DNA of 64,000 nt from Agrobacterium tumefaciens str. B6. GTDB taxonomy: Bacteria; Pseudomonadota; Alphaproteobacteria; Rhizobiales; Rhizobiaceae. The notes under the pieces were generated by a model. It worked only from the letters and a program-made list of their open reading frames with translations, searched no databases and was not told the origin of the DNA. Location: assembly GCF_001541315.1 (NCBI RefSeq), contig NZ_LMVK01000004.1, positions 82,479 through 146,478 on the forward strand, written 5' to 3'. Both the position numbers and the translations under genes were made by a program. Of this stretch, positions 32,528 to 33,862 are shown piece after piece (position 1 is the stretch's first letter; every line of letters starts with the position of its first letter).

Positions 32528-32645
32528 CACATGCAAATGGAGAAACCACGGGACATGTCGGTGATATTGACCGCCGAACGTCAGTTATTAAACTGCAGGG
32601 CAGTCAACAAAACACACCGGACATCACTGCCCGGCGTTGAGGCGG

Positions 32646-32674
32646 CTTCTAAACACGTTTTACAAATTTGTCAA
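32646..32674 (-). promoter_or_regulatory. promoter of rpsD
   Basis: Perfect TTGACA (32669-32674, minus), 17-bp spacer, TAGAAG (32646-32651). Start near 32639. Confidence 0.65.
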
Positions 32675-32707
32675 ACAAAGCCCGCCGCTTTTTTCTCGAA
32701 CCGGCCC

Positions 32708-32735
32708 TTGAAAAGCCTGAAGGCTCTCCTATCTC
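32708..32735 (+). promoter_or_regulatory. promoter of the terC transcript
   Basis: TTGAAA (32708-32713), 16-bp spacer, TATCTC (32730-32735). It would start transcription near 32742, eight bases before the structured leader. Confidence 0.45.
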
Positions 32736-32741
32736 TCCATC

Positions 32742-32878
32742 GTGATCAGAACTCGGGCCCCTCTGGCGTGTTACCGGACAACACGTGATGTCGAGTTTCT
32801 TTAGGTTGGGGCCCACGCATATTCTTCACGCACGTTCCCCATCCGCAAAGCCAACCTCGTCCGGCTAAAGGTTGACTG
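32742..32878 (+). ncRNA. structured cis-regulatory leader RNA of terC (riboswitch candidate)
   Basis: The 137 bases before terC hold nested pairings: 32750-32755 with 32792-32797, enclosing 32767-32772 with 32780-32785; GGGCCCC (32755-32761) with GGGGCCC (32808-32814), a possible pseudoknot; AGGTTGG (32803-32809) with CCAACCT (32851-32857). The same CAACCT (32852-32857) can pair with AGGTTG (32869-32874), which holds the AAAGG ribosome site 7 bases before the ATG. The last two pairings exclude each other, giving an on/off switch. A terC RNA motif has been proposed by comparative genomics upstream of proteobacterial terC genes; I believe this is an example. Its ligand is unknown to me. Confidence 0.65.
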
Positions 32879-33862
32879 ATGGAGTTCCTCCTCAACGATT
32901 TTCTCGGTACCCCCACATGGATGTGGGCGGTCTTCATTTCTCTCGTCCTTGGCCTCCTGGCGCTCGATCTTGGCGTATTGCACAAGAACTCCAAGGAAAT
33001 CGGCATCCGTGAAAGCCTGCTGATGTCAGGCTTCTATATCGCCATCGGTTTGGCCTTTGGCGGCTGGATCTGGTACCAGTCCGGCCAGCAGTCGGCGATG
33101 GAATATGTCACCGGCTTCGTGGTCGAAAAAAGCCTGGCGATGGACAATATCTTCATCATCGCCATGATCTTCTCCTATTTCGCCATTCCCCGCCAATATC
33201 AGCACCGCGTGCTGCTCTGGGGCATCCTCGGCGTCATCATCCTGCGCGGTATCATGATTGCCGGCGGCGCGGCCATTGTCGAAAACTTCCACTGGGTGCT
33301 TTATCTCTTTGCGGCCTTCCTCGTCTTCACCGGCCTCAAAATGCTGTTCTCGTCCGACCATGACGAGGCCGATATCGGCAATAACCGCATCCTGAAATTC
33401 CTGCGCAGCCGCCTTCCGGTAACGGAAAAGCTGCATGGCGAAAAATTCTTCGTCAAGGAGACGGATGCGACCACCGGCAAGCTGAAGACCTTCGTGACGC
33501 CGCTCTTCCTGGCGCTCATCATGGTCGAAATCGCCGACCTTATCTTCGCGGTCGATTCGATCCCGGCGATCTTCGCGATCACCACCGATCCGTTTATCGT
33601 CTATACCTCGAACATCTTCGCGATCCTCGGCCTGCGCGCCCTTTACTTCGCGCTTGCCGCCCTGATCCACCGATTTGCCTATCTGAAATATGCGCTGGCT
33701 GCGGTTCTGGTTTTCGTTGGTTCCAAGATTTTCGTCGCCGACATGCTCGGCATCGCCAAGATCCCGCCCGCCGTCTCGCTCGGCGTCACCGTCGCCATCC
33801 TCGCAACCGGCATCATCGGTTCGCTGATCGCGACCCGCAAGGAAGCAAAGGCCGTAGAATAA
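32879..33862 (+). CDS. TerC-family integral membrane protein
   Basis: 327 residues with about nine hydrophobic helices. The family motifs EKSLAMDNIF and EIADLIFAVDSIPAI, each with an acidic pair inside the membrane, mark TerC/Alx proteins. Characterised relatives export manganese or metallate membrane-bound secreted enzymes; some were first linked to tellurite resistance. Expression is probably controlled by the structured leader directly upstream. Not next to any ter-gene cluster, so a metal-homeostasis role is more likely than tellurite resistance. Confidence 0.92.
   Translation: MEFLLNDFLGTPTWMWAVFISLVLGLLALDLGVLHKNSKEIGIRESLLMSGFYIAIGLAFGGWIWYQSGQQSAMEYVTGFVVEKSLAMDNIFIIAMIFSYFAIPRQYQHRVLLWGILGVIILRGIMIAGGAAIVENFHWVLYLFAAFLVFTGLKMLFSSDHDEADIGNNRILKFLRSRLPVTEKLHGEKFFVKETDATTGKLKTFVTPLFLALIMVEIADLIFAVDSIPAIFAITTDPFIVYTSNIFAILGLRALYFALAALIHRFAYLKYALAAVLVFVGSKIFVADMLGIAKIPPAVSLGVTVAILATGIIGSLIATRKEAKAVE

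Follow-up and report, generated by a model that had tools for sequence, protein, structure and literature searches.

A bacterial RNA motif found upstream of terC genes, the terC RNA (RF03067), is said to come from the work of Weinberg and others in 2017. The leader described here shares with it the stem P1, the internal loop GGGCCCCUCUG, the hairpin P2, the sequence GAUGUCG and the position upstream of terC. It differs in that the Rfam model lacks two further hairpins, P3 and P4, and a contact between the P2 loop and the ribosome site; all three lie outside the model, whose match ends at 32803. The loop contact is therefore new relative to Rfam, and since it may have been drawn earlier, in the original description of the motif, we claim no priority for it. 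In SAM-II and preQ1-II riboswitches, the Shine-Dalgarno region is engaged by a loop. The predicted contact of our leader resembles these pseudoknotted translational riboswitches in this respect, but its partner lies just upstream of the Shine-Dalgarno and within a hairpin loop, and no relationship is claimed. The yybP-ykoY riboswitch (RF00080), located before alx and mntP in Escherichia coli, is likewise the leader of a terC-family gene and has a link to manganese and alkaline pH, according to two papers (PMC3874183, PMC9603457). It differs from our leader, which gives no RF00080 match. Among the literature matches listed, which were drawn mostly from outside the subscription journals and include two papers on OLE RNA, none dealt with the terC RNA, which is an orphan as far as we have seen, its signal not being known to us.

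The leader and its RNA family

The window, that is, the whole stretch of 64,000 nucleotides of Agrobacterium tumefaciens str. B6 DNA that was analysed, carries a terC coding sequence of 327 aa on its forward strand (32879..33862; Pfam TerC, 1.1e-52), with the ATG at 32879, as the first-pass annotation had placed it. A DNA search recovered orthologous leaders from 39 of 39 same-genus genomes, and their alignment contains 35 distinct rows. Upstream on the same strand is a predicted sigma-70-type promoter (32707..32734), from whose position the RNA is predicted to start near 32741. Its -35-like hexamer CTTGAA (32707-32712) is kept in all 39 leaders, and the -10-like CTATCT (32729-32734) is conserved in part (A32731 in 39/39, T32732 in 35/39, T32734 in 38/39, the other positions varying), in keeping with the earlier proposal of a promoter just before the structure.

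In a covariance-model search, nucleotides 32745-32803 of the forward strand match the terC RNA over its full length (model positions 1-59 of 59), with 49.2 bits against a gathering score of 39.9. The match lies upstream of a terC-family gene and on its strand, and both P1 and P2 show covariation in the same-genus leaders. The core of the leader is thus an already catalogued RNA family and not a new one, which settles the earlier guess of a new RNA; the suggestion that the signal sensed may be new now becomes a question about what a known orphan family senses. The same suggestion had come with the statement that no yybP-ykoY core is visible, and this is borne out by the Rfam comparison that had been proposed as a check: RF00080 was found neither in the window, nor in a low-threshold scan of 32600-32950, nor elsewhere in the genome. 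An RsmV match at 32866 scores 11.5 bits against a cut-off of 100 and is put down to chance. At the far end of the window lies an FMN riboswitch aptamer (RF00050; 63846-63996, forward strand, 118.3 bits).

Three terC RNA copies are present in this genome: the window leader before terC, one preceding a TerC-DUF475 gene (L001), and one preceding a 103-codon ORF followed by exoD (L002). In the family, 144 of 247 genomes have an RF03067 match (140 over the cut-off). The figure is 98 of 297 in the order, where RF00080 is matched in 15 (11 over the cut-off), and 31 of 240 in the class. When named genomes were scanned with a pattern, at least 119 stretches (L210-L328) came back. The 80 matches listed are mostly from Alphaproteobacteria, the other records being six from Pseudomonas, one from Arenimonas and one from an Oscillospiraceae member; the last may be a chance match.

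Stems of the leader and competing pairings

P1 (32749-32755/32792-32798) is paired in 100% of alignment cells, and one of its pairs changes from A-U to G-C on both sides in 14 of the 35 distinct sequences. The segment GGGCCCCUCUG (32755..32765), made up of the last P1 base and the conserved internal-loop strand, belongs to the RF03067 consensus; it is the hallmark of the family and is invariant in 39/39 same-genus leaders. Above it, P2 (32766..32786, pairing 32766-32772 with 32780-32786) is paired in 99.6% of cells, with two pairs changed on both sides. Together P1 and P2 span about 32749-32798, inside the RF03067 match, and correspond to the nested hairpin noticed in the first-pass annotation. 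The accessory hairpin P3 (32804-32811/32837-32844) is paired in 91.1% of cells across the 35 distinct sequences; its pair 32806/32842 is changed on both sides in five of them and unpaired in 25, the window included. P4 (32849-32857/32869-32877) is nearly invariant: seven pairs never vary, one U-A becomes U-G in 2/35, and the C32851.A32875 mismatch is unpaired in 35/35. Its frame AGCCAACC...GGTTGACT is found in all 39 same-genus leaders, and P4 itself has been seen in the genus and in two leaders from outside it, L212 and L378. The 3' strand of P4 takes in the AGG of the Shine-Dalgarno AAAGG (32867-32871), giving the 5' strand the place of an anti-Shine-Dalgarno; in the folding ensemble, G32870 and G32871 are unpaired with a probability of 0.16. 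This hairpin includes the downstream pairing recognised earlier, of CAACCT (32852-32857) with AGGTTG (32869-32874). The leader is structured and probably controls terC translation.

Two further pairings had been proposed along with these hairpins, each of which could make the leader a two-state switch. One would let CAACCT leave AGGTTG (the sequestering, off state) for the upstream AGGTTGG at 32803-32809 (the antisequestering, on state). Both pairings can form, and taken alone the upstream one is computed at -8.1 kcal/mol against -6.4 for P4, but its probability in the ensemble is 0. The helix 32803-32809 x 32851-32857 shows no covariation; of its seven pairs, one is lost in 5/35 distinct sequences and another in 1/35. 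The upstream strand 32804-32811 pairs instead with 32837-32844 as P3, with the compensatory changes at 32806/32842, and it is missing from L212 and L378, which keep P4. We therefore regard this switch as very improbable: the structured terC leader with its ribosome-site hairpin stands, and the mutually exclusive partner is unsupported by the 39 orthologous leaders. The other pairing, GGGCCCC with GGGGCCC (32755-32761 x 32808-32814), put forward earlier as a possible pseudoknot, could act as an anti-aptamer in a lineage-specific switch, the GGGG of P3 pairing either with the internal loop, which destroys P1, or with the CCCC of P3. When the single sequence is folded, this helix comes out strongest (pairing probability 0.97-0.99), and GGGG 32808-32811 is invariant. 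The fold that contains it and excludes P1 reaches -39.7 kcal/mol versus -27.8 for P1-P4 without the kissing pair of the P2 and P4 loops described below; as this pair is computed to be worth about -12.1 kcal/mol, no penalties counted, the two totals come close and two states are energetically plausible. Yet the contact does not covary in the 39 orthologues, one position on its CCC side is deleted in 19/35, and two of its pairs are disrupted, in 3/35 and 1/35. The CCCC of the internal loop is part of the family consensus and so is conserved for other reasons; moreover, the family has no excess of downstream matches to GGGCCCCUCUG, and P3 is absent in L212 and L378. An anti-aptamer of this kind is thus unlikely. 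The alignment of orthologous leaders that had been suggested as a check yields compensation in P1, P2 and P3, and none for the upstream pairing or the GGGCCCC/GGGGCCC contact. Since the whole leader is no more stable than its shuffles (z +1.08), folding energy alone would have revealed no structure.

Complementarity between the P2 loop and the ribosome site

CCGGAC of the P2 loop (32774-32779) and GUCCGG of the P4 loop (32859-32864) are perfectly complementary. This match, like the membership in the terC RNA family, had been missed in the first-pass annotation. Both strands are present in 39/39 members of the genus, with the second located 13-14 nt before the ATG (14 nt in the window). The genus evidence for this pair is one of conservation and not of covariation; because the pair is invariant there, it was tested across the family.

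The P2 apical segment of every terC RNA was compared with the downstream sequence, the control being loops swapped between loci, and near-duplicates were removed by k-mer overlap before each test. The first set of 209 copies gave 198 unique ones and 126 representatives. In the named set (L210-L289), 78 of the 80 loci had enough downstream sequence and gave 73 representatives, and the combined set, which includes all of the at least 119 named stretches L210-L328, went from 358 to 265 non-redundant terC RNAs. Over the whole 110 nt downstream, positions disregarded, the excess is weak (mean -11.0 vs -9.8). Between 15 and 30 nt after the motif, a range picked after viewing the first set and then checked on the named set, 22 of the 126 first-set representatives have a match of at least 6 bp, against a swap mean of 4.3 and a maximum of 12 in 2000 swaps; the overlapping ranges 8-23 and 23-38 give 13 vs 3.5 and 7 vs 3.0, respectively, and P2 loops alone give a similar result. 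The named set has 11/73 vs 2.3 (maximum 9 in 5000 swaps). Some of its copies resembled the first set (14 in L210-L289, 22 in L210-L328), and once these are removed the counts are 9/62 vs 1.8 for L210-L289 (maximum 8, p 0.0002) and 11/92 vs 2.8 for L210-L328 (maximum 9, p 0.0002). In the combined set, 40 of the 265 reach 6 bp at 15-30 nt, against a mean of 8.7 and a maximum of 21 in 5000 swaps, while the within-locus controls give 9 (direct), 6 (reversed) and 13 (complement). At 7 bp or more, 24 matches stand against 3, 2 and 3 for the same controls, and other downstream positions are near the controls. An ATG follows the helix by 11-18 nt in 28 of the 40 positives, compared with a fraction of 0.196 at the same offsets in 225 negatives, so that the match forms a sequence link from the conserved core to the start site. 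From the excess over swaps and controls and from this spacing, it follows that the contact exceeds what composition would give, that its two strands change in step, and that it is tied to the ribosome site.

The same test on other segments of the motif in the 126 representatives (the 5' P1 strand, GGGCCCCUCUG and the 3' P1 strand) found no significant excess. This speaks against a family-wide pairing of GGGCCCCUCUG with the Shine-Dalgarno, and against a pairing of either P1 strand with it, an idea prompted by GGUCCGGC in front of some start codons; at best, the 5' P1 strand has 9/126 vs 5.4 swapped, which is also the lowest p (0.08). In the group with a tetraloop on P2, at 12-30 nt and 5 bp, loops alone match in 4/49 (p 0.19) and a longer segment in 13/49 (p 0.005), and at 6 bp the count is 4/49 (p 0.08); the effect there is weak at most. 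Two other stretches, raised at 5 bp, lose their excess at 6 bp and are taken as chance: 35-53, when the longer segment is used in the large-loop group (18/77 vs 9.9, p 0.008), and 90-105 in the named set (15/73, p 0.003). The TerC-DUF475 class has by eye a 4-bp CGGC/GCCG match, below the 6-bp threshold. Since 40/265 reach 6 bp at 15-30 nt and the other members, by eye for instance the TerC-DUF475 and tetraloop-P2 classes, do not, the contact is one expression platform among several.

A DNA search of 247 family genomes found leaders of the window type in 14, four of them within the genus; at three of the loci matched by this search (L382, L385, L386) the terC motif is absent. Two leaders from other genera, L212 (Aliirhizobium terrae, with a TerC gene downstream) and L378, keep P4 and the loop pair and lack P3. 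Their loop pairs, UCCGGAC/GUCCGGA in L212 and CCGGAC/GUCCGG in L378, lie 22 and 19 nt beyond the motif, respectively, in agreement with the rest of the family. P3 thus appears to have been inserted between P1 and P4 in the lineage of the window and to stand outside the general design, and the loop contact would be older. In further genera, the loop pair reads GCCGGAU/AUCCGGC (L379) or GCCGGAUC/GAUCCGGC (L381, L383), and the resulting GCCGGAU(C)/(G)AUCCGGC amounts to a compensatory change from C-G to U-A together with additional pairs. Over 21 selected rows, the loop pair is paired in 89.1% of cells vs 75.4% when shuffled, with 23 cells changed on both sides, figures that serve as an illustration and not as proof, as the rows were picked with the contact visible and four were shifted by the aligner.

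Downstream genes, proposed signal and mechanism

One downstream ORF was assigned to each locus by codon-position GC, and four of the 80 named loci had none. TerC is the largest group in both sets. The 132 genes of the first set comprise 95 TerC, 7 Tim44, 6 DUF475 (L001 matching both TerC and DUF475), 5 YegS/DAGK, 5 ATPase inhibitor zeta, 4 TerB, 3 DUF4112, 2 ExoD and 2 HlyD. Among the 76 of the named set are 46 TerC, 8 DUF475, 4 YegS/DAGK, 3 TerB, two each of Bax1-I, DUF4112 and Tim44, and one each of NhaA, MnhE, M48 and others. In L260 (Tateyamaria), a terC RNA with the loop pair is directly followed by an MnhE gene and then by MrpF, MnhG and an MnhB-related gene, which together make up an Mrp antiporter operon. 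In L240, a 58-codon DUF465 gene comes first and NhaA second. nhaA and Mrp are thus found at one locus each in the 76 genes of the named set, and are absent from the 132 of the first.

Several classes of copies have features of their own. The 103-codon ORF (MxADIxAWxxTLFxxxP... or similar) follows the terC RNA in six loci (L002, L199, L200, L202, L204, L251), with the same length in all of them and no Pfam match in L002. In the TerC-DUF475 class (L001, L012, L013, L014, L134, L135), the terC RNA is followed after 36-37 nt by the start of an ORF of 30-35 codons, whose end in L012, L013, L134 and L135 is no more than a few bases from the terC start; it possibly encodes a leader peptide coupled to terC. 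A second hairpin, GACYGCAUCG...CGAUG, mostly followed by GGGUCC, comes directly after the terC RNA in L005, L025, L027, L028, L036, L104, L121 and L337, and is apparently a different expression platform. Seven loci (L011, L053, L055, L068, L126, L130, L132) have GGAGAAGGUCCGGC as their ribosome site right before the ATG, where GGUCCGGC is a possible partner for GCCGGGCC, a segment of the motif whose family-wide excess is not significant. Finally, GGGCCC and then AGCGGGY occur soon after the motif in L030, L046, L060, L084, L099, L107, L223 and L286, and also in L140; in this class, 8/8 copies searched precede genes for Tim44-domain proteins.

The genes point to a signal when set beside the literature. 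exoD mutants of Sinorhizobium meliloti are alkali-sensitive (PMC1403797, PMC3233446), the leader of E. coli alx, which encodes a TerC relative, permits translation under alkali (PMC3874183), and alkaline pH and manganese act jointly on yybP-ykoY switches (PMC9603457). From these reports and from the association with exoD, the Mrp operon and nhaA, we infer a role for terC RNAs in alkaline or cation stress; the main rival for the signal is Mn2+.

The contact of the P2 loop with the ribosome-site region is predicted to gate terC translation. The reading we favour, with moderate confidence, is that of a terC RNA whose P2 loop docks on the loop of the ribosome-site hairpin, docking blocking translation and alkaline or cation stress releasing it. 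Behind it stand the family membership, the covariation of P1 and P2, the conservation of P4, and a loop complementarity that exceeds chance in some family members and keeps a set distance to the start codon. In the RNA, the P2 and P4 loops would form a kissing pair; leaders that lack P4 would have an H-type pseudoknot instead. Docking of P2 on the P4 loop, or in other leaders on the bases just in front of the Shine-Dalgarno, would impede the entry of the ribosome; it would also stabilise P4 and lower translation, the docked state presumably being the off state. The conserved internal loop GGGCCCCUCUG may be the sensor, and a change in it, or deprotonation of the C.A mismatch of P4, could lead to undocking in response to a signal tied to alkaline pH or to the accompanying ions. 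A bolder version, which we think unlikely, makes terC RNAs a widespread alphaproteobacterial alkaline-pH sensor for a TerC/ExoD/Mrp/NhaA regulon. In the lineage of the window, the ribosome-site hairpin itself would then do the sensing, with the invariant C32851.A32875 as a protonated A+.C pair: at neutral pH this pair would close P4, locked in place by the P2-P4 kissing pair, and alkali would open it.

The strongest competitor is a riboswitch binding a metabolite or Mn2+, in which the ligand would form the loop contact as an aptamer lock, in place of a block released by a signal. TerC proteins handle manganese, and another terC gene is under a manganese-responsive riboswitch, according to one report (PMC10550928). 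The predominance of TerC downstream (95/132 and 46/76) and an internal loop without variation in the genus, a common trait of aptamer cores, also fit this explanation. However, genes for ExoD, Mrp, NhaA, Tim44, YegS-like, ATPase inhibitor zeta and DUF4112 proteins lie downstream as well, and to our knowledge none of these is a manganese exporter. In addition, a substrate should switch its exporter on, and a ribosome-site contact more easily switches it off. Such a riboswitch is therefore possible, but we consider it clearly less probable than the docking of the P2 loop. That the element is a DNA operator, with inverted repeats bound by a protein, is the least likely explanation of all. Stem covariation alone fails to separate a DNA inverted repeat from an RNA stem, but here the element follows a conserved promoter-like site, precedes the start codon and shares the strand of the gene, and the loop match is tied to that codon. 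Furthermore, three divergent loci hold two terC RNAs, one per orientation (L360 in G608, L361 in G696, L362 in G695). In L360 and L362, the TerC and DUF4112 genes diverge, each with its own copy, and L361 has TerC on one side. A shared operator would need no second copy, which argues for RNA.

In the lineage of the window, the predicted contact between the sensor hairpin and the ribosome site says how the terC RNA probably acts. The loop contact extends the terC motif past the Rfam model and provides the exact bases for compensatory mutants. The presence of exoD, the Mrp antiporter operon and nhaA beside many terC genes offers a testable signal for this orphan RNA, namely alkaline or cation stress.
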